Assembly: GCA_022826025.1 (NCBI GenBank)
Contig: JAJDVR010000012.1
Coordinates: 1 to 61,478 of the forward strand
Reading direction: 5' to 3'
DNA length: 61,478 bases
Origin: Gemmatimonadota bacterium
Lineage (GTDB): Bacteria > Gemmatimonadota > Gemmatimonadetes > Longimicrobiales > Gaopeijiaceae
How positions within the stretch are numbered: the first letter of the stretch is position 1; each line of letters starts with the position of its first letter. Below are positions 18,357 to 58,722 of the stretch, in pieces. A program made the position numbers and the translations under genes. The notes under the pieces were generated by a model. That model searched no databases, was not told the DNA's origin, and worked only from the letters and a program-made list of their open reading frames with translations.

Positions 18357-18773
18357 CTACTCGGCAGTGCTGCTTCCGAGCAGCTCGCACCCGATGCGGG
18401 CAATGCGGGTGAAGTGGGCGTCGTGCGTGAGAACCACGCTGGATGTCCGCGCGGCGCACGCGGCGATCCAGACATCATTCGAGGGCAAAGGCGTGCCGGC
18501 CGTCCTCAGTTCGGCTACAAATCGCCCGTATGCACGCGCAACCTCTTCGTCTGCGGCGATGATCTCGACAACGGGATGGGCGAGGAACTCCCTCAGGCGC
18601 TGGAGTTCCCCGGGGCGGTTCCCCATGAGCGAATAGCCCGTATACAGTTCCCCGAGCGCGATCACGGGAAAGCCGATCCAGCTTGCGCCGTCAATCGCGT
18701 CGACGGTTGCCGCGTCTCCGCGCAGGAAGCGGATGTAGGCCGATGTGTCGAGGCAGTAGCGGGTCACTTCCAC
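18357..18773 (-). CDS. vapC: PIN-domain toxin, VapC family
   Basis: The 138-residue PIN-domain protein has the acidic constellation CLDTSAYIRFL (Asp9), ALGELYTGY (Glu), NDVWIAACA (Asp) and THDAHF (Asp). This order matches the VapC/FitB branch of Mg2+-dependent endoribonucleases. Its start overlaps the upstream antitoxin gene by 10 bp. Convergent with the nucleoside permease. Confidence 0.9.
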   Translation of the reverse strand: MEVTRYCLDTSAYIRFLRGDAATVDAIDGASWIGFPVIALGELYTGYSLMGNRPGELQRLREFLAHPVVEIIAADEEVARAYGRFVAELRTAGTPLPSNDVWIAACAARTSSVVLTHDAHFTRIARIGCELLGSSTAE

Positions 18774-19009
18774 ATCTCCGGGTCGATCTCATCGAACGGA
18801 GCAAGCGCTTCTTCGAGCGCTCGAACGCGCTCCTCGCTCCATCCCCCCGACAGACGGGCAAGACCGTTGGAGCGGGTCGCTCCGACTCCGAGCCCCTGCC
18901 TCAGCAGGTCGATTGCCGTGCGATTGAGCGATTGTCCTCGCCTCCGCTTCTCCCGGTCAAGTGCCGCAGCGAGGTCGGGAGGAATGTTCCGAAGAGTGAT
19001 CGCCTTCAT
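18764..19009 (-). CDS. Ribbon-helix-helix antitoxin (FitA-like)
   Basis: The 81-residue product begins MKAITLRNIPPDLAAALDRE, the FitA-type ribbon-helix-helix start, followed by RRRGQSLNRTAIDLLRQGL. The C-terminal part (WSEERVRALEEALAPFDEID) is the likely toxin-binding tail. The ATG at 19009 is chosen because GGAG stands 7 nt upstream; an in-frame ATG nine codons earlier lacks such a site. It overlaps the PIN toxin. Confidence 0.88.
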   Translation of the reverse strand: MKAITLRNIPPDLAAALDREKRRRGQSLNRTAIDLLRQGLGVGATRSNGLARLSGGWSEERVRALEEALAPFDEIDPEMWK

Positions 19010-48165: not shown

Positions 48166-48708
48166 CTACTCCACATACGCCCACAACCACTCCCGGCTCT
48201 CGCTGTCCAGCGCGGAGGTATCGCGCACGTAGTAGAGATCGCCGGAGACGTCCCGGATCAGGAAGCCCGAATCCGACACTTCGCGCGGCCAGTCGTCGCG
48301 CCGGGTCTGAAAGGAGCGGGGTCCCTGGCGGGTTTCGACCCGCCAGTACCGGATCTCGACTTCCTCCTCCACGGCGCGAATGCGCGTCACCTCCAGCACG
48401 AAACCGGCTTCGGCGAGTGCATCCTCAAGGGCCGCGCGCGAGCTCGCGTCGAGTTCGCCCGCGTCGCGCACCAGGGCGACCTCTTCGTCCTCGGCATCCC
48501 GCAACGACACGAATCGTCCCGGTTCCGTCCAGGGAAAGCACCGGTGCACCTTCACCCGGACTTCACGGCCTGCGGTCCGTGCCCACAACTGCCCGTCGAT
48601 GCGCCGCTCCAGCTTCACCACCGGGCCTGCATTCCCCACCACCGCGCCCCTCCTCACCGTCGTCGTCATGGACTCCGTCGTCATCGTCGTCACTTCCTCG
48701 CATCGCAT
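48166..48708 (-). CDS. DUF1854-family protein paired with an ABC exporter
   Basis: The 180-residue protein has the DUF1854 core (VHRCFPWTEPGRFVSLRDAE, EVEIRYWRVETRQGPRSF, GFLIRDVSGDLYYVRD). DUF1854 genes are known to sit next to an ABC exporter with an extended N-terminus in gene sets annotated as cyanophycin-associated; their biochemical role is not known. The ATG lies 3 bp after the ABC gene and has GAGGAG upstream, so the two form one operon. No cyanophycin synthetase is present in the window. Confidence 0.8.
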   Translation of the reverse strand: MRCEEVTTMTTESMTTTVRRGAVVGNAGPVVKLERRIDGQLWARTAGREVRVKVHRCFPWTEPGRFVSLRDAEDEEVALVRDAGELDASSRAALEDALAEAGFVLEVTRIRAVEEEVEIRYWRVETRQGPRSFQTRRDDWPREVSDSGFLIRDVSGDLYYVRDTSALDSESREWLWAYVE

Positions 48709-48711
48709 GTC

Positions 48712-51057
48712 TCAATTCTCCTCTTGTCGCGGACGCTGCAGCTCCAGCTGCATCTCGTGCAGACGCCGATAGATGCCCCGTGGATTCTCCAGCAGCTCCC
48801 CGTGCGTTCCCGCCTCCACCAACTGTCCGTCCTTCATCACGAAGAGACGCGATGCCCGGTGCAGGGTGGACAGCCGGTGCGCGATCGCGAACACCGTGCG
48901 TCCGGCCACCAGCCGGTCCAGCGCCTCCTGAATCTTCCGTTCCGTCTCCGTGTCCACCGCGCTGGTGGCCTCGTCGAGGATGAGGATGCGCGGGTCGTGC
49001 AGGATCGCCCGAGCGATCGACACCCGCTGCCTCTCGCCGCCGGAGAGGGTCTGTCCGCGTTCTCCCACCACGGTGTCGTAGCCGTGCGGAAGGCGGCAGA
49101 TGAAGTCGTGCGCGTTGGCGGCCTTGCCCGCTTCGATCACCCGCTCCAGGCCGGCGTCCGGGTGTCCGTAGCGGATGTTCTCCACCACCGTGCCGTGGAA
49201 CAGGTAGGGGTCCTGCAGCACCATGCCCATCTGGCGGCGATAGTGTCCGATCTCGAGCGCCCCGATGTCGACGCCGTCGATGCGGATGGTCCCGCCCGTG
49301 GTGTCGTGGAAGCGCGCGATGAGGTTGACGACCGTCGTCTTTCCGCCGCCCGACGGCCCCACCAGCCCGATCATCTCGCCGGGCTCCACGTCGAAGGTCA
49401 CCCCGCGCAGAACCTGCCGCACGCCGTCGTACCCGAACGTCACCGAATCGAAGGACACCCGGCCCGCGAGCGGCTCGAGGCGCACCGCCCGCGGCTGCTC
49501 CACGATCTCCGGCTCGGTGTCGAGCACCTCGAAGACCCGGTGCGCCGAACTCGTCGCCCGGTTCATGGTGCGCGCCATCTGGCCGATGATCTCCACCGGC
49601 CCGATGAACATGGTGGTGTAGAGCAGGAACGAGACGAAGGTCCCTGCGGACAGGCCGGGCGCCGCGCCCGGTCCCTCGAGCAGCCGCGGCAGGGCGAACG
49701 CCCACACCGCCACGGTGGTCCCGTGCACCGCGAGCATCAGCCCCGGCCAGAAGGTCGTCCACATGCGATGGATCCGGTTGTACTCCTCCGTCACGCTGGC
49801 ATTGCGGCGATCGAAGCGCCGCGTCTCCCGCTCCTCCTGGTTGAAGGTCTTCACCACGCGCATGCCGGGGATCGTGTCGGAGAGGATGTCGGTCACGCCG
49901 GACCACTTGCGCCAGGCGCGCATGAAGAGGCGCTGGATGCGTTCGCCGTGCAGGTAGATGGCCCAGCAGAAGAGCGGGACCGGCGCCGTCATCACCAGCC
50001 CGAGCTTCCAGTCGAGGCTCAGCAGCACGATGCCGAGCCCGCCCAGCATGACCAGCGACAGCGACACGTCCACCACTCCGAAGGCCAGGAATTCCCATAG
50101 CCGGTCGGTGTCCGAACTCACGCGCGTGATGATGCTTCCGGTCTTCTTGCGCATGTAGAAGGACATGGAGAGCCGCTGGAGATGCTCGTACAGCTCGGTG
50201 CGCAGGTCGCGCGCGACCCACTCGCCCAGCACGGAGAGCATGCGCAGCCGCACCAGCGCGGCCGCCTGCCGCACGACGTAGACGAGCGCCATCGCTCCAA
50301 CGGCGACCCACGCCGCCAGCGTGCCCCGGGAGACATCCAGCGTACCGTCCTGCACCGGCTGGATGACATCGTCCAACAGGTATCCGGCGAGATAGGGGGG
50401 GATCAGGCTCACCAGCGTGATCAGTCCCGCCGCCGCAAGCCCGGCGGTTACCTCCTTCCGGTACGGCCGCAGGTAGCCGAGCAACCTCCAGATCACCGCT
50501 ACCCGAGAGCCCGCGACCATGGCCTGGGCTTCGCGGATCGGTGCCGCCACGCTCTCGGCGTAGGTCTCGTCCGGCGTCGCCGGCTCGACGCGTCTGCCGT
50601 GCAACTGCTCCTCGAGAACGAAGCGCAGGTTCTCCATCGCGCGCCGCTGCCTGTGCGTGTAGCGCACCGTGGCGAGCGGCGGCTCGTCGGGTTCGGCCAG
50701 GAAGGACAACACGGTGCCGGAGAGACCCGGTGATTCGCTGACCGCCTTGATCGCGGAGCGTGGAACGCTGCGAATCTCCCACTCGCCGGATGCGTTCTCG
50801 TCGCGGGGGTCGTGCCCTGCGACCCTCCGCCGCGCGACCGCCAGATGCTCCTGCCCCAGGGCGACCCAGGTCTCCGACAGGCGGAGCCCGGCGTCCAGGT
50901 CGGCCAGGGCGTAGAGCTGCACCGGCGCACCGCTCCACGCCGCTTCGATGACGGCCCGCGCCCCGGCGGGCATTCTCCCCGGCTGGTTGGTGTATCGGGC
51001 GACGATTTCGCGGTCCATTCTCCCGCTGCGCCTCTTCATCTCCTCGCTCTGTCGCAT
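48712..51057 (-). CDS. ABC exporter (fused TMD-NBD) with N-terminal extension
   Basis: The 781-residue half-transporter has six transmembrane helices (~190-480) and an NBD (Walker A GPSGGGKTT, signature LSGGERQRV, Walker B ILILDEATSAVD, H-loop AIAHRLST). Unusually, ~180 soluble residues precede the first helix (ARAVIEAAWSGAPVQLYALA, FLAEPDEPPLATVRYT), a region seen in exporters paired with DUF1854. It presumably works as a homodimer exporting an unknown substrate. A 17-bp hairpin stands 25 bp upstream of its ATG. Confidence 0.85.
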   Translation of the reverse strand: MRQSEEMKRRSGRMDREIVARYTNQPGRMPAGARAVIEAAWSGAPVQLYALADLDAGLRLSETWVALGQEHLAVARRRVAGHDPRDENASGEWEIRSVPRSAIKAVSESPGLSGTVLSFLAEPDEPPLATVRYTHRQRRAMENLRFVLEEQLHGRRVEPATPDETYAESVAAPIREAQAMVAGSRVAVIWRLLGYLRPYRKEVTAGLAAAGLITLVSLIPPYLAGYLLDDVIQPVQDGTLDVSRGTLAAWVAVGAMALVYVVRQAAALVRLRMLSVLGEWVARDLRTELYEHLQRLSMSFYMRKKTGSIITRVSSDTDRLWEFLAFGVVDVSLSLVMLGGLGIVLLSLDWKLGLVMTAPVPLFCWAIYLHGERIQRLFMRAWRKWSGVTDILSDTIPGMRVVKTFNQEERETRRFDRRNASVTEEYNRIHRMWTTFWPGLMLAVHGTTVAVWAFALPRLLEGPGAAPGLSAGTFVSFLLYTTMFIGPVEIIGQMARTMNRATSSAHRVFEVLDTEPEIVEQPRAVRLEPLAGRVSFDSVTFGYDGVRQVLRGVTFDVEPGEMIGLVGPSGGGKTTVVNLIARFHDTTGGTIRIDGVDIGALEIGHYRRQMGMVLQDPYLFHGTVVENIRYGHPDAGLERVIEAGKAANAHDFICRLPHGYDTVVGERGQTLSGGERQRVSIARAILHDPRILILDEATSAVDTETERKIQEALDRLVAGRTVFAIAHRLSTLHRASRLFVMKDGQLVEAGTHGELLENPRGIYRRLHEMQLELQRPRQEEN

Positions 51058-51709: not shown

Positions 51710-53707
51710 ATGCTGAGGTTCGCGGAGGAAATCCTTGTTCTCGTCCTGGACGAGGAGCGGGGGGATCTGGCCCCCAACCTGCCCGCGCGCTCACTCGACC
51801 TGGCGCTCGCCGGAGCAGTGCTGATGGATCTCGCGCTCGAGGACCGCATCGACACGGATCTCGAGCGCCTGATACTCGTGGATCCCACGCCTCTCGACGA
51901 CGATATCCTCGATCCGACGCTGGCAGAGATCGCGCGCGCGGACCGGTCGCGCGACACGGCCTATTGGCTCGGCCGGATCGCCGCCCAGGGAGACGGCATC
52001 CGGCGTACCGCGCTCGCCCGCCTGATCGAGCGCGGCATTCTGAGATCCGAGGCGCACGGGCTTCTGTCCCTGGTTCCCGCCGTGTCCCGGTCGCGGCTCT
52101 ATCCCGCCGCCGACGGGCAGCCGGTCGAAGAGGCCAGGCTGCGGATCATGCGCGTGCTGTTCAGCGACGACGTCCCGGATCCCCGGGACATCGCGATGAT
52201 CGCGCTCGCCAACGCTTGCGGCGTGTTCCGCACCATTCTGTCGTCGGAGGAGCGCGAACAGGTCCGGGATCGCATCGATCTGCTGAAGCATCTGGACCTG
52301 ATCGGCCGGACGATGGGCCTGGCGATCGAAGGACTCGAGGCGCGCGACGCACCACCTTCAGAGCCTCGGCAACCGAAGGAGATCCCGGCGGTGCCGGGCC
52401 TTCCGCTGCTGGGCAACGGCCTGGCCATGCGGAAGGGAGTCGTGACCTTCCTTGCCCGCCAGTACCGTGAGCTGGGTCCGATCTTCAGAATACGTGTTCC
52501 GGGGCGCCGGTTCGTGTGCATCGCGGGGCCGGAAGCGGCCAATTTCCTGACCTCGCGCGGGAAGACCGTGTTCCGGTCGCTCGAGCCCATGGCAAACTTC
52601 CACAACCAGATGGACGCATCGCGTTCGATCCTGACCATGGACGGGATCGATCACGTCACAACGCGGAAGGCCCAGGCCAGGGGATACGCGGTCCGGGTCA
52701 TGAGGGATCGGTCGCAAGAGGTCGTCGACATCACGAGCGACGAGATCGCCAAGTGGCCGGTGGGGGAACCGTTCGAGGCGTTGCCGGCATTCCAGAACGT
52801 CATCGCCGAGCAAATGGGCTACATGATGGCGGGCTATTCCCCGCAGGGCTACACGCGCGAACTGTGCACACTCCTCGGCGGGTTGCTCCTCAGCGCCTCG
52901 GTGTTTCCGCACATCATGAAGCTCCCGCGGTTCCGGCGTGCCCGCGCACGAGGCCACGAGCTGGCCGAGACGGTCCTCGCACACAAGCGCAAGGTGGGTC
53001 CACGCAAATCGACGCCGGACTTCATCGATCTGATGCTCGAACTGCGCGAGGCCGATCCCCAACTCCTGCCCGAGACGAACCTGAGCTTGACCGTGCTGGC
53101 GCCGTACATGGTCGGACTGGATACCACGGCGAGCACGTGCGCCTTCATGCTCTACAACATGCTGAAGCGTCCGGGGCTCATGGGGCGCATGACCGCCGAG
53201 GCGGACGCCCTGTTCGAGAACGGCCCCGTGTCCGGCGAGGGGCTCCGGCGGCTCGACGTCTCACGCCGCGTGGCGATGGAGACCCTCCGGCTTCATCCGG
53301 TCTCCCCCGCCGTGCTTCGGACGACCGCCAACTCGTTCGAGTTCGCGGGTCACAGGGTCCCCGCCGGCACCCAGGTCATGATCGGTACGGCGGTCGGGCA
53401 CACGCTCGAAGAGTACTTTCCCGACCCGGAGCGCTTCGACATCGACCGCTACACGCCGGCTCGCGGCGAACACCGGCAGCGCGGCGCCTACGTTCCCTTC
53501 GGGGCTGGCAACCACCGGTGCCTCGGCAGCGGTCTCGTCCCGCTCCAGCTCGGCCTCACCATGGCCACAATACTGAGGGAACTCGTTCTGGAACGGCTCG
53601 ATCCGGATCATGCGCTGCGGGTGAGATCGTTCCCGACCATGCAGCCGGTGGGCTTCAGGGTCCGTGTTCTCGCCCGCCGGACGCACGACACGCCAGTGAC
53701 GAACTGA
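51710..53707 (+). CDS. GPP34-like domain fused to cytochrome P450
   Basis: The 665-residue protein combines two domains. Residues ~1-215 read as a GPP34 (Golgi phosphoprotein 3-like) domain: EEILVLVLDEERGDLAP, LDLALAGAVLMDLALEDRID and ALARLIERGIL. Residues ~225-660 are a complete P450 with the proline-rich hinge PAVPGLPLLGN, I-helix GLDTT (469-473), ExxR as ETLR (524-527), and the haem loop FGAGNHRCLG with Cys604. GPP34 proteins bind phosphoinositide membranes in eukaryotes; bacterial roles are unknown. No reductase partner is adjacent. The acyltransferase gene begins 17 bp downstream. Confidence 0.85.
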   Translation: MLRFAEEILVLVLDEERGDLAPNLPARSLDLALAGAVLMDLALEDRIDTDLERLILVDPTPLDDDILDPTLAEIARADRSRDTAYWLGRIAAQGDGIRRTALARLIERGILRSEAHGLLSLVPAVSRSRLYPAADGQPVEEARLRIMRVLFSDDVPDPRDIAMIALANACGVFRTILSSEEREQVRDRIDLLKHLDLIGRTMGLAIEGLEARDAPPSEPRQPKEIPAVPGLPLLGNGLAMRKGVVTFLARQYRELGPIFRIRVPGRRFVCIAGPEAANFLTSRGKTVFRSLEPMANFHNQMDASRSILTMDGIDHVTTRKAQARGYAVRVMRDRSQEVVDITSDEIAKWPVGEPFEALPAFQNVIAEQMGYMMAGYSPQGYTRELCTLLGGLLLSASVFPHIMKLPRFRRARARGHELAETVLAHKRKVGPRKSTPDFIDLMLELREADPQLLPETNLSLTVLAPYMVGLDTTASTCAFMLYNMLKRPGLMGRMTAEADALFENGPVSGEGLRRLDVSRRVAMETLRLHPVSPAVLRTTANSFEFAGHRVPAGTQVMIGTAVGHTLEEYFPDPERFDIDRYTPARGEHRQRGAYVPFGAGNHRCLGSGLVPLQLGLTMATILRELVLERLDPDHALRVRSFPTMQPVGFRVRVLARRTHDTPVTN

Positions 53708-53724: not shown

Positions 53725-54921
53725 TTGACCGGCGCACCGTCCCGGGTCACCATCCCGCGCTACCACTCCCTCGACCGGCTGCGCGCATCCATTATGCTGC
53801 TCGGAGTGGTTCGGCACGCCGCGATGAGCTACGAGCCCACTGTTTTCGAGGCGTGGCCGTACAAGGACCCCCAGGCCGACGTCCTCGTCCACTGGTTGAT
53901 CGTCTTCATCCGCGTGTTCCAGTTACCGGTCTTCTTCGCGATTGCGGGGTTCTTCGCGGCATACCTGGTCCAGGCGCGCGGCATCCGGGGGTTCCTGCGG
54001 CATCGATGGAGCCGGGTCGGGGTGGTGTTCCTGGTGGCCTGGCCAGTGGTGGCGGGAACGATGTACTTCGTGGTGACCTTCGCCTCCCGGTTCAGTTCCG
54101 TCCCGCCGAGCTATACCTACAGCGTGGACGAGCTGACCACGGCCCATGCATTGCGCTACATCTTCATGCACCTGTGGTTTCTCTATCATCTGATGATTCT
54201 CTGCGTGGTCGCGAGCGGTGTGCGGTTGCTCGTCGTCCGCATCCCGGAAGGCGTGCGCGCCCGGGCGCTGGACCTCTGCGAGCGCCTGGTCCACCGGGGG
54301 GGCATCGCGGTGCTGGCCCTGGCCGCGGGCGCCATACTGTACCGGATGCAGTCGTGGGAAATCGACTACTATGCCGGCCCGTTCCCACCCCTGCGCATGC
54401 TGGGGCTGTGGGGGCTGTTCTTCGCGTTCGGCTGGCTGCTGTTCTGCCGCCGAGGGACGCTGGAAGGCTTCAAGCGTCCGGCATGGCCCCTTTTCGCCGC
54501 CGGAATCGCGTGCTTCTTCGCCTACCGGTTCTTCGCTGACGCAGGCTGCCACGCCGGCCCGGACAGGGTCTGCACGGGAACTTCGGAGGCGTACCACCTG
54601 GGGACGGTCGTCTTCCTCTCGCTGTCCATGTGCGCCTTGGCCTATAGCCTCATCGGACTGTTCCTGCGCTACATGAACAGGCCGAGCTCGCGCTGGCGTT
54701 ACATGGCGGACGCCTCGTACTGGATCTACATCGTCCACGTGCCGTTCGTGATCATGGTGCCCCTCCTCTTCGCGCGCATACCGCTTCCCGGGATCGTCAA
54801 GCTCGCGCTTGTCGTGACGATGGCCACCGGCCTGATCCTGTTGACCTACCGGTACTTCGTGCGGTCCACCTTCATCGGGAAACAGCTGAACGGGCGCCGC
54901 TACCCGCGAAGCGCGACCTGA
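53725..54921 (+). CDS. Acyltransferase-3-family membrane protein
   Basis: About 398 residues with ten hydrophobic segments. The N-terminal motif YHSLDRLRASIMLLGVVRHA is the R-x-x-H region of the acyltransferase 3 (OafA/OpgC) family, and SYWIYIVHVPF is the late-helix signature of OpgC-like members. These enzymes acylate sugars, glucans or lipids at the inner membrane. TTG at 53725 is used because no ATG precedes the conserved motif. It follows the P450 gene closely and is likely co-transcribed. Confidence 0.8.
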   Translation: MTGAPSRVTIPRYHSLDRLRASIMLLGVVRHAAMSYEPTVFEAWPYKDPQADVLVHWLIVFIRVFQLPVFFAIAGFFAAYLVQARGIRGFLRHRWSRVGVVFLVAWPVVAGTMYFVVTFASRFSSVPPSYTYSVDELTTAHALRYIFMHLWFLYHLMILCVVASGVRLLVVRIPEGVRARALDLCERLVHRGGIAVLALAAGAILYRMQSWEIDYYAGPFPPLRMLGLWGLFFAFGWLLFCRRGTLEGFKRPAWPLFAAGIACFFAYRFFADAGCHAGPDRVCTGTSEAYHLGTVVFLSLSMCALAYSLIGLFLRYMNRPSSRWRYMADASYWIYIVHVPFVIMVPLLFARIPLPGIVKLALVVTMATGLILLTYRYFVRSTFIGKQLNGRRYPRSAT

Positions 54922-55418
54922 CGGCGGCGAGAGGCCCGGCCAGCCGTCGTCAGTGCTCGTGCACGTGGATGTGAAGCGGTGCGGTCACGAAATCGGCGTG
55001 CCCGGAGCCTACGGCCGTGCATCAGGCGGAAGACGATCTCGGTGTCGCCCTCGGCCACTCCGTGCAGGCGTCCCCCGAACTCCCCGGGGGTGTCCTGCTC
55101 GAATTCGGCTATGGACTCGTCCTCGACCTCCACCTCCAGGTAGAAGTCCTCGTCGAACTGGATCGGGTCCATGTCGTGGTCCACGAAGCGCACGGTGATG
55201 TGGGCGGTTTCCTCGCCCGGCTCGACCTCCGGTTCACCGGTCCACTCATCGTCGTGTCCGTCGTAGGACGCGATCGTCTGGCCGCTCAGCACCAGGATCG
55301 CACCCTCGACCTCCTCTGCGTGGTATTCCTCGGGTTCGGTCGCGCTCTCGCACGCCGAGAGGGCCAGGATGCCTGCGGTCAGCAGGGCGAACGGCAGTCT
55401 CAGTCTCGAACGTCTCAT
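54900..55418 (-). CDS. Metal-binding-type lipoprotein, frameshifted near the 3' end
   Basis: The start MRRSRLRLPFALLTAGILAL and lipobox ALSAC mark a lipoprotein; the mature part is rich in Glu, Asp and His (EPEEYHAEEVEG, DGHDDEWTGEPEVEPGEE). Near 55000-55010 the frame departs into Arg-rich sequence that overlaps the convergent acyltransferase gene. In the neighbouring frame the sequence continues HADFVTAPLHIHVHEH and stops at 54950-54952, a natural metal-binding tail. One extra base relative to the intact gene explains this. It is a pseudogene or a sequencing error; zinc binding is inferred. Confidence 0.75.
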   Translation of the reverse strand: MRRSRLRLPFALLTAGILALSACESATEPEEYHAEEVEGAILVLSGQTIASYDGHDDEWTGEPEVEPGEETAHITVRFVDHDMDPIQFDEDFYLEVEVEDESIAEFEQDTPGEFGGRLHGVAEGDTEIVFRLMHGRRLRARRFRDRTASHPRARALTTAGRASRRRQVALRG

Positions 55419-55831
55419 CTCTCTCTCCTCATCCGGGTTGATGTTCTGGTCGTTCCTGTCGCGAAGCCACGGAACCACGTCGCCTCGGCGCTCAGGCGCT
55501 GTCCCGTGACGCGCCCGAACACGTCGATTCCGAGTCCCGTTTCCATCTCGAGCGAGGGATTGCCGACGTCATATGAATTGGCCGCGAGGTGCGGCCCCTC
55601 CGAGTAGAGTTCGTTTACGTCCGGCGTGCGAAAGGCACGGGCCACGCTCGCACCCATGGTGAGCGGCCCGGTCACCCGCAGAAGTGCGCCCAGCGATCCG
55701 GAAACCGCGTCGAAGGAACGTGCGCGGATGTGTCCGATGTCGGAGAACTCGTCCTCCTCGTTCGGTTCCAGCTCGACCCGGTCACCGGGATGTCGCGGCC
55801 GATCAGCAGTTCGGCGACCGTCTCGTCTCGG
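55415..55831 (-). pseudogene. Fragment of a ZnuD-like TonB-dependent receptor
   Basis: An open frame without a start codon encodes about 139 residues. Its core (EEDEFSDIGHIRARSFDAVS, ASVARAFRTPDVNELYSEGP, HLAANSYDVGNPSLEMETGL) is the late barrel region of a TonB-dependent receptor; RxPxxxELYxxGPHxAxxxxxxGNPxL is typical of ZnuD-type zinc receptors. Both the plug/N-terminal part and the C-terminal barrel are missing, so only about one fifth of a receptor remains. It directly follows the barrel-protein stop and runs into the lipoprotein start. Confidence 0.75.
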
Positions 55832-57930: not shown

Positions 57931-58722
57931 TCAGCGGCCCTCTTCGACCTGGGCGTATGCGTCGTGCTCGTGGATCGACTCGTAGTTGACCACGTGGACC
58001 CTGAACCAGGTGACCTTCCTGAGCGCCCGCAGCCGGAGCGTGACCTCGCGCACCAGGTCCTCCACGAAACGCGGGTTGTCGTAGGCCCGCTCGGTGACCC
58101 ATTTTTCGTCCGACCGCTTGAGCACGGGGTAGAGGTCGCACGACGCCGATTCGTCGACCAGCTCCACGAGGTCCTCGATCCACAGTTCGCCGTCGAAGCG
58201 CACCTCCACCGTCACGATTCCGCGCTGATTGTGGGCGCCACGGGCGCTGATCTCGCGCGAGCACGGACAGAGCGTCGTCACAGGCACCTTCACCGTCAGG
58301 ACGAAGTCGTCCTCCGCTCCGCTGGAAGCGTCGAAGACGCAATCGTACGACAGCAGACCCCGGGCCCGCGTGATCGGCGCCCTCTTTTCCATGAAGTACG
58401 GGAACGAGATGCGCAGGTGCGCGGTTGCCGCGTTCAGGCGCTTGCGCATGGTCCGCAGAATGGTCGGCACGGCTTCGACCGAGATCTCGCCGTCGTGGGA
58501 GTTCAGGATCTCCATGAAGCGGCTCATGTGGGTCCCCTTGAAGTGAGAGGGGAGATCCACGGACATGTCGACGGAACCCACGGTATGCTGTGCGGTCTTG
58601 CGCCGGTCCCGCACCGCGATGGGGAAACGGATGTTCTGAACGCCGACCTTGGCGATGGGAACCTCGCGCAGGTCGGGGATCGCCTGCACGTCCGCAAGCG
58701 TCGTCTGGAGCGTCTCTGTCAT
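57931..58722 (-). CDS. folE2: GTP cyclohydrolase I type 2 (FolE2)
   Basis: FolE2 converts GTP to dihydroneopterin triphosphate for folate and 7-deazaguanine synthesis. The 263-residue sequence is typical throughout: NIRFPIAVRDRRKTAQHTVG, the catalytic Cys in TTLCPCSREIS and the His/Glu region NYESIHEHDAYA. FolE2 does not need zinc and in many bacteria is induced by zinc limitation. Its ATG overlaps the upstream MazG-like stop (ATGA). QueE, which uses a later intermediate, is encoded about 1.1 kb away. Confidence 0.95.
   Translation of the reverse strand: MTETLQTTLADVQAIPDLREVPIAKVGVQNIRFPIAVRDRRKTAQHTVGSVDMSVDLPSHFKGTHMSRFMEILNSHDGEISVEAVPTILRTMRKRLNAATAHLRISFPYFMEKRAPITRARGLLSYDCVFDASSGAEDDFVLTVKVPVTTLCPCSREISARGAHNQRGIVTVEVRFDGELWIEDLVELVDESASCDLYPVLKRSDEKWVTERAYDNPRFVEDLVREVTLRLRALRKVTWFRVHVVNYESIHEHDAYAQVEEGR

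Follow-up and report, generated by a model that had tools for sequence, protein, structure and literature searches.

The locus and its two genes

The stretch of DNA analysed here (the window, 61,478 nucleotides; contig JAJDVR010000012.1 of assembly GCA_022826025.1, from a bacterium of the phylum Gemmatimonadota) contains a gene in which a GPP34 domain, the domain of the Golgi proteins GOLPH3 and Vps74, is joined to a complete cytochrome P450. An earlier note, made from the sequence alone, had drawn attention to this architecture and to the membrane acyltransferase gene that follows it, and the present analysis confirms that the gene is a genuine GPP34-P450 fusion. The pair consists of the following features.

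51710..53707, + strand: GPP34-cytochrome P450 fusion gene of clade A, 665 amino acids; one open frame from the ATG at 51710 to the stop at 53707 (Pfam)
51722..52294, + strand: GPP34 (GOLPH3/Vps74 fold) domain, residues 5-195 (PF05719, AlphaFold2, Foldseek)
52295..52387, + strand: proline-rich linker, residues 196-226, with low model confidence at 212-221
52388..53593, + strand: cytochrome P450 domain, residues 227-628 (PF00067, 1.4e-52)
53114..53128, + strand: I-helix oxygen-binding motif GLDTT, residues 469-473 (motif scan)
53279..53290, + strand: ExxR motif ETLR, residues 524-527 (motif scan), whose E and R do not vary among 43 fusions
53498..53527, + strand: haem-ligand loop FGAGNHRCLG, residues 597-606 (motif scan), with Cys604 invariant in 43 fusions
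53725..54921, + strand: membrane acyltransferase (Acyl_transf_3, OpgC/MdoC-like), TTG start, 398 amino acids (PF01757, 4.1e-23)

Both Pfam models match the single frame well above their cut-offs: PF05719 over residues 5-195 (E 6.6e-37, 128 bits against 29.1), which is the profile search that the note had proposed, and PF00067 over residues 227-628 (E 1.4e-52, 179 bits against 22.8). The P450 is complete, as had been claimed, since all three motifs are present, and E524, R527 and C604 are invariant across 43 aligned fusions. In an AlphaFold2 model built with 39 aligned relatives as input, the GPP34 part (residues 1-217) has a predicted local distance difference test score (pLDDT) of 92.3, and all eight Foldseek matches of this model in the Protein Data Bank (PDB) with E<=0.001 are GOLPH3 or Vps74, the following match having an E value of 0.25; the domain thus resembles GPP34 in structure as well. 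A phmmer search of residues 1-215 alone against the PDB was unproductive; an alignment to the GOLPH3 family was nonetheless obtained. The model of the full-length fusion is of somewhat lower confidence (pLDDT 84.8, predicted template modelling score 0.67), with low-confidence stretches at residues 212-221 and 230-241, and a hydrophobicity scan of the full protein revealed no clear transmembrane segment, apart from one marginal window at 385-403.

The note's assignment of the GPP34 fold is supported, but a reading of the domain as a lipid binder of the phosphatidylinositol 4-phosphate (PI4P) type is not. The PI4P-binding residues of GOLPH3, W81, R90, R171 and R174, align with P25, A34, D95 and R98 of the window protein, and the R174 column holds an arginine in 34 of 39 aligned relatives. 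With one of these four residues kept, a role of the domain as a PI4P-type lipid binder is unsupported, which lowers that claim and leaves membership of the fold untouched.

The acyltransferase gene starts with a TTG at 53725, 17 bp past the stop of the fusion. Its product matches PF01757 (4.1e-23, 82.4 bits against a cut-off of 31) and has 11 hydrophobic segments as well as an R20-x10-H31 pair, R-x10-H being the catalytic motif of Acyl_transf_3 (AT3) enzymes; against the PDB, no matches were found at E<=1.

Distribution of the fusion family

The fusion family comprises several clades and has moved between phyla. With the window protein as tblastn query, stop-free matches over both domains were obtained in at least 43 of the 395 genomes of the phylum Gemmatimonadota, which rules out that a frameshift had joined two separate genes, the artefact against which the note had cautioned. 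At most three candidates were scored per genome, so that these counts are lower bounds; in a 44th genome (G311), the halves match in separate tblastn rows. Three identity classes can be distinguished, with class A at 83-92% identity within Gemmatimonadota, class B at 38-46% and class C at 30-35%, and class A fusions are present in 19 of the 395 genomes. The genome to which the window belongs (3.9 Mb in 287 contigs) has five GPP34 matches, namely the window fusion, a second fusion (contig C275, 41% identical), a third that is cut by contig ends and lies on C121 and, it appears, also on C87, as well as two unfused genes.

A scan of 84,980 species genomes gave 77 loci (best 80 of 148), of which 44 (L156-L199) are fusions or pieces thereof and the remaining 33 are lone GPP34 genes. 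Class A members with 66-92% identity occur in records titled Gemmatimonadota, Chloroflexota (Caldilineaceae), Acidobacteriota, Bacteroidota/Rhodothermales, Alphaproteobacteria, Binatia and Latescibacterota, i.e. in seven phyla, the labels being record titles of which some are unreliable (the contig of L157, titled Gammaproteobacteria, is as long, at 58,087, as C162 of G010, a genome in the genus of the window). When the fusion protein was compared with plasmids, 85 records matched, none at 80% query coverage, and among the 15 matches listed only the P450 part was covered; no match was found in viral contigs.

The lone GPP34 genes have no neighbour common to more than five of the 33 loci. They are tandemly paired in some genomes, and a STAS-domain gene lies near some; the loci that show these features are L206, L217 and L225 as well as L070, L204 and L229.

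Partner genes of the different clades

Partner genes were located by searching the fetched loci with partner proteins (tblastn), and the loci were binned into clades by P450 identity. In class A, the acyltransferase that the note had seen as a linked neighbour 17 bp downstream proves to be a constant partner: it is the next gene in 22 of 22 unsplit loci with room for it, across phyla, at 12-316 bp between match ends. These 22, among them L173 with a single internal stop and L176 with a frame break in its GPP34 part, belong to 33 class-A loci, the others being split by an integrase element (nine) or running off a contig end (L177 and L187, excluded); several loci are the same contigs under two identifiers, and the count of 33 is taken from the genome_contigs set alone.

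Among the 17 distinct loci of bin B (18 in total, L053 and L195 being one record), ten have a sulfotransferase gene 19-69 bp away, where L189, L191 and L193 are near-identical, and CysD, a sulfate-activation gene, lies beside L051 and L052. An acyltransferase is located 871 bp from L188 and a weakly matching one (29%) at L194, a Rieske gene adjoins L054, and none of the acyltransferase, sulfotransferase and Rieske partners adjoins L053/L195, L055 or L106. No sulfotransferase gene lies beside the P450 in the window, where the partner is the acyltransferase.

Of the 37 loci of bin C, 31 have a Rieske oxygenase of the KshA type within 8 kb (the KshA_C domain was checked on one protein) and 32 have a resistance-nodulation-division (RND) transporter; an MpaB/Lcp oxygenase and an FAD oxidase recur in part of the loci. 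A methyltransferase gene with a Sterol_MT_C domain is present in 22 of the 37, in 12 of these within 66 bp downstream. We call this protein sterol-methyltransferase-like because that Pfam C-terminal domain matches: one representative scored 56 bits (cut-off 21.7), and a genome-wide Pfam search confirmed all 22 places. It has no NCBIfam sterol-methyltransferase match, and the top solved structures are general methyltransferases, a 24-sterol C-methyltransferase appearing only at 1.2e-7. At L058, an SdmB-like epimerase gene lies 3' of the fusion (208.6 bits, cut-off 600).

Transfer between phyla and the probable link to sponges

A maximum-likelihood tree was made of 43 of the 45 fusions, omitting L173 and L197, the former for its internal stop and the latter for a frame break. 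Bin B is not monophyletic in this tree, as L054, L109:8298, L195 and L196 group with clade C. The tree joins L166 (Bacteroidota) to L161 (Gemmatimonadota) with support of 100/98, and L178 and L179, both from Binatia, to the two alphaproteobacterial copies with 100/100, branching that shows cross-phylum transfer of the fusion. In low-GC contigs of the Bacteroidota type, the GC content of the fusion is above that of its flanks (0.609 against 0.516 for L166, 0.567 against 0.504 for L180). The orthologous genes between L166 and L157, L159, L161 and L163 are the fusion and the acyltransferase, save for repeat-rich proteins in L157 and L161, which account for the longer matches and look leucine-rich-repeat-like by eye. 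Among the tblastx matches listed for the flanks, many are short and of low identity and were treated as chance, and L165 and L186, both from Acidobacteriota, have genuinely common flanks. Class A lies on contigs of 2.5 Mb from Latescibacterota and 403 kb from Terriglobia, and class B on a 5.2-Mb Binatia chromosome. Mis-binning as the sole source of the cross-phylum pattern is weakened by these large contigs and the GC contrast, which together with the tree mean that it cannot explain everything.

The habitat of the carriers was tallied over the 44 loci L156-L199, counting titles by eye and loci rather than genomes. We take 27 of these (12 SB06xx, eight RHO and four p16x records, and three with single names) to belong to sponge sets. 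Another 14 carry jk18x isolate names, a prefix used for metagenome-assembled genomes (MAGs) from Ircinia sponges (PMC9531527). The last three are MPM records; MPMI and MPMO, two of their bins, appear in work on the sponge Aplysina aerophoba (PMC5649159). MAG sets from Rhopaloeides and Ircinia exist as well (PMC8163846). The fusion family is therefore likely tied to sponge symbionts, a link that is only partly documented.

An integrase element that splits the gene

Among the 19 genomes of the phylum with class A, nine have the fusion gene broken after the haem loop, at a short sequence that is intact in the window:

53519..53532, + strand: 14-bp sequence TGCCTCGGCAGCGG, from the haem-Cys codon; flanks an integrase element in related genomes

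Nine of the 33 class-A genome_contigs loci are likewise element-split, eight of them being the same records as in the phylum set. The right-hand remainder of the gene together with the acyltransferase was recovered in six split genomes (G168, G099, G104, G189, G326 and G273), and in these six the 14-bp core TGYCTCGGCAGCGG, which starts at the haem-Cys codon, is found at both ends of the element. In the other split genomes, the acyltransferase was partial only (G359) or not found (G009, G318). A complete element of 10.1 kb is present on one contig of G168 (L146:2466-12569), with a tyrosine integrase gene at the right end (PF00589, 3e-16) and a GmrSD-type gene inside. The left end is conserved and the sequence past it variable; related loci, besides L146, are L098-L105, L049, L167-L172, L174, L182 and L184. 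The start of the element, searched with up to three mismatches, does not occur in the window, where the gene copy is intact, and the integrase had no match in viral contigs.

Related integrases were present in 15 of 17 genomes searched, at 1-25 per genome (eight in G000, 25 in G001, 23 in G189 and 21 in G318). Some of them lie at contig ends, and together they make up an extensive family of elements that may use other target sites too.

Other features of the window

Upstream of the fusion, on the opposite strand, genes for an ABC transporter and a DUF1854 protein (48166-51057) resemble a cyanophycin-associated pair, both under the cut-off. This pair adjoins the fusion in most loci of the window's genus, is absent at L050, and was not seen in other phyla. 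Elsewhere, two small adjacent open reading frames (ORFs) at 18357-19009 look by eye like a PIN-domain toxin and its antitoxin, and a short ORF at 55415-55657, again judged by eye, resembles the tail end of a TonB-dependent receptor and may be what is left of such a gene.

Sterol genes in the carriers

On contig C8 of the window's own genome, a squalene epoxidase gene (PF08491, 1.2e-22) overlaps an oxidosqualene cyclase gene that is cut by the contig end (TIGR03463, 536 bits, cut-off 851). Strong cyclase matches (at least 66% identity) were found in six of the 395 genomes, that is in six of the 43 fusion carriers and none of the 352 others, and four weaker matches (30-33%) occur in non-carriers. 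The Sterol_MT_C domain is present in 32 of the 43 carriers as compared to five of the 352 other genomes of the phylum; both sets of co-occurrence figures ignore relatedness and shared habitat.

The overlapping epoxidase and cyclase in the window's genome (L154:2587-5489) correspond to one open frame of up to 1125 amino acids in the relatives L233-L236, possibly a squalene epoxidase-oxidosqualene cyclase fusion. Upstream in L233, L235 and L236 lies a 78-residue ORF resembling a P450 remnant (34 residues at 47-50% identity in two of them, by eye in the third).

Sterol methyltransferases have been reported from sponge symbiont metagenomes, many of them clustered with sterol genes including sdmA and sdmB (PMC10070321), and 115 of 537 Ircinia MAGs contain steroid gene clusters, for which evidence of horizontal transfer is reported (PMC9531527). 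GPP34 is not mentioned in the consulted portions of either paper.

Proposed function and alternatives

The note had suggested a two-step modification of a membrane lipid or lipid-linked compound. The scheme of hydroxylation followed by conjugation has gained from the finding of a sulfotransferase in ten of the 17 distinct bin-B relatives; the substrate is something that we infer, as are membrane docking, hydroxylation itself and the order of the steps. The reading that we put forward, which could equally well prove right or wrong, is that the fusion is a peripheral-membrane P450 that hydroxylates a membrane lipid, plausibly a sterol, after which the product is capped with an acyl or sulfo group. 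The protein would be cytoplasmic, with the GPP34 module replacing a membrane anchor and keeping the P450 against the inner leaflet, either via lipid contact or by gripping a membrane partner. The molecule that the P450 hydroxylates would be hydrophobic and reside in the membrane, a sterol or similar triterpenoid being the most plausible choice, whether made by the cell or obtained from the host, and the acyltransferase, translated directly after the fusion, would esterify the new hydroxyl. That the P450 hydroxylates is predicted from the partners of classes A and B, which transfer acyl and sulfo groups onto a hydroxyl. In the paralogous clades, the same fused P450 would be followed by a sulfotransferase in clade B, and in clade C it would work alongside Rieske, SdmB-like and sterol-methyltransferase-like enzymes. 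In favour of this proposal are the domains and P450 motifs, the absence of a clear transmembrane segment from the fusion as against the 11 hydrophobic segments of the acyltransferase, the constant acyltransferase of clade A, the sulfotransferase and CysD genes of bin B, the Rieske, Sterol_MT_C and SdmB-like genes of bin C, the co-occurrence of Sterol_MT_C and strong cyclase matches with the fusion, the epoxidase and cyclase genes of the window's own genome, and the CYP51s as best PDB matches of the P450.

Several observations weigh against this proposal. Three of the four PI4P residues are lost in the window protein, and at the lone GPP34 loci no P450, acyltransferase, sulfotransferase or Rieske match was found in 33 out of 33, some of the contigs being short. 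The sole NCBIfam match of the acyltransferase is the glucan enzyme MdoC, the OpgC/MdoC glucan succinyltransferase, whose equivalog cut-off is missed (145.1 of 338 bits), and Acyl_transf_3 enzymes also modify sugars and other acceptors. For class A the sterol link consists of family resemblance and co-occurrence only, with Sterol_MT_C in 16 of 19 genomes; in 22 of the 37 genomes with this domain, and so in 22 of the 32 carriers that have it, it is the clade-C neighbour itself, and three of the five non-carriers that have it hold pieces of the fusion family (G311, G298 and G401). The P450 also lacks the GQH[TS]S pattern, the I-helix signature of CYP51, and has GLDTT instead. Finally, 37 of the 43 carriers have no cyclase match at E<=1e-30 (draft genomes, at most three candidates scored in each), and therefore self-made sterol is not required and is not the general substrate; a supply from the cell's own oxidosqualene cyclase as a general rule was rejected, with a cyclase in just six of 43 carriers. 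Host sterol is a possible source.

The loss of the PI4P residues from a retained GOLPH3/Vps74 fold, and the strict coupling of clade A to a membrane acyltransferase, also suit the idea that GPP34 is a protein-docking adaptor which tethers the P450 to a membrane partner instead of binding lipid, much as GOLPH3/Vps74 grips the cytosolic tails of Golgi glycosyltransferases. The occurrence of the same GPP34 domain with other partners in clades B and C argues against such docking; we consider it a possibility of some weight, though somewhat improbable, and it is compatible with the hydroxylation and capping of a membrane lipid. By analogy, the same hydroxylate-then-cap logic might also apply to an isoprenoid lipid other than a sterol, for instance menaquinone, a carotenoid or a hopanoid. 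The MpaB/Lcp-type oxygenases of some clade-C loci belong to a family that cleaves prenyl chains, and the 37 carriers without a cyclase would fit. The P450 beside a sulfotransferase is the arrangement of cyp128 and stf3 in Mycobacterium tuberculosis (PMC6469627). Such a substrate is made rather unlikely by the clustering of sterol-methyltransferase-like, SdmB-like and KshA-type genes with clade C and by the Sterol_MT_C domain in 32 of 43 carriers.

The pair might also make a secreted or surface natural product or detoxify a host compound, in which case the sterol links would be a by-product of the common sponge habitat. In NCBIfam, the P450 scores best, though far under the cut-offs, with models of P450s from terpene natural-product pathways (albaflavenone, pentalenene). 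Transfer of a small cassette between phyla is typical of accessory metabolism, and Ircinia symbionts commonly have steroid gene clusters in any case (PMC9531527). However, no further biosynthetic gene is kept beside clade A across phyla, as judged from L166 and its four counterparts, and we regard this explanation as improbable.

A wider and more tentative picture can also be envisaged, which as a whole is probably too ambitious: a mobile two-gene hydroxylate-and-cap cassette on a GOLPH3-fold P450, spread over at least seven phyla of the sponge microbiome, would together with its sulfotransferase- and sterol-methyltransferase-linked paralogues tailor sterols, so that some of the acylated and sulfated sterols of sponges would be completed by their symbionts, and bacterial GOLPH3-type domains would be adaptors through which soluble redox enzymes reach membrane lipids. 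To our knowledge, bacterial GPP34 domains have no established role, and a P450 fusion that is conserved across phyla gives a handle on it. The reaction class can be predicted from the switch between acyltransferase and sulfotransferase partners, and the substrate class from the sterol-methyltransferase neighbourhood; both predictions bear on who makes the unusual sterols of sponges. Its passage between phyla singles the cassette out as useful in the sponge habitat.

Comparison with known systems

P450 fusions and GPP34 domains are each already known kinds. In literature listings on GPP34 with cytochrome P450, on bacterial homologs of GOLPH3 with P450s, on Streptomyces GPP34 and on P450s of sponge symbionts, no description of the combined architecture was found, and the papers listed for GPP34 with cytochrome P450 are insect or pest-control studies. 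With GOLPH3/Vps74 (PF05719), the window domain shares both sequence family and fold (Foldseek E 1.4e-7 to GOLPH3 9qpq, template modelling score 0.75 by query length), but it is bacterial and enzyme-fused, and has P, A and D at the positions of W81, R90 and R171 of the PI4P site. The best PDB matches of the P450 domain are CYP51 sterol 14-alpha-demethylases (1.6e-37), from which the window protein differs in its N-terminal GPP34 domain and its acyltransferase partner; a true CYP51 was rejected, as the GQH[TS]S pattern is absent.

In the CYP128-Stf3 system we know of no GPP34 domain. CYP128 and Stf3 are proposed to hydroxylate and sulfate menaquinone, yielding sulfomenaquinone (PMC6469627), so that a P450 adjoins a sulfotransferase proposed to cap its hydroxyl, as in clade B, whereas the partner in the window is an acyltransferase. 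The steroid gene clusters of Ircinia symbionts likewise combine a P450, annotated as CYP51, with sterol genes and with horizontal transfer across sponge symbiont phyla (PMC9531527). Their core, however, is ERG24-CYP51-ERG7, and the codon-aware CYP51 alignment described for them has 1698 positions, which is below the roughly 2 kb of the fusion genes (PMC9531527).

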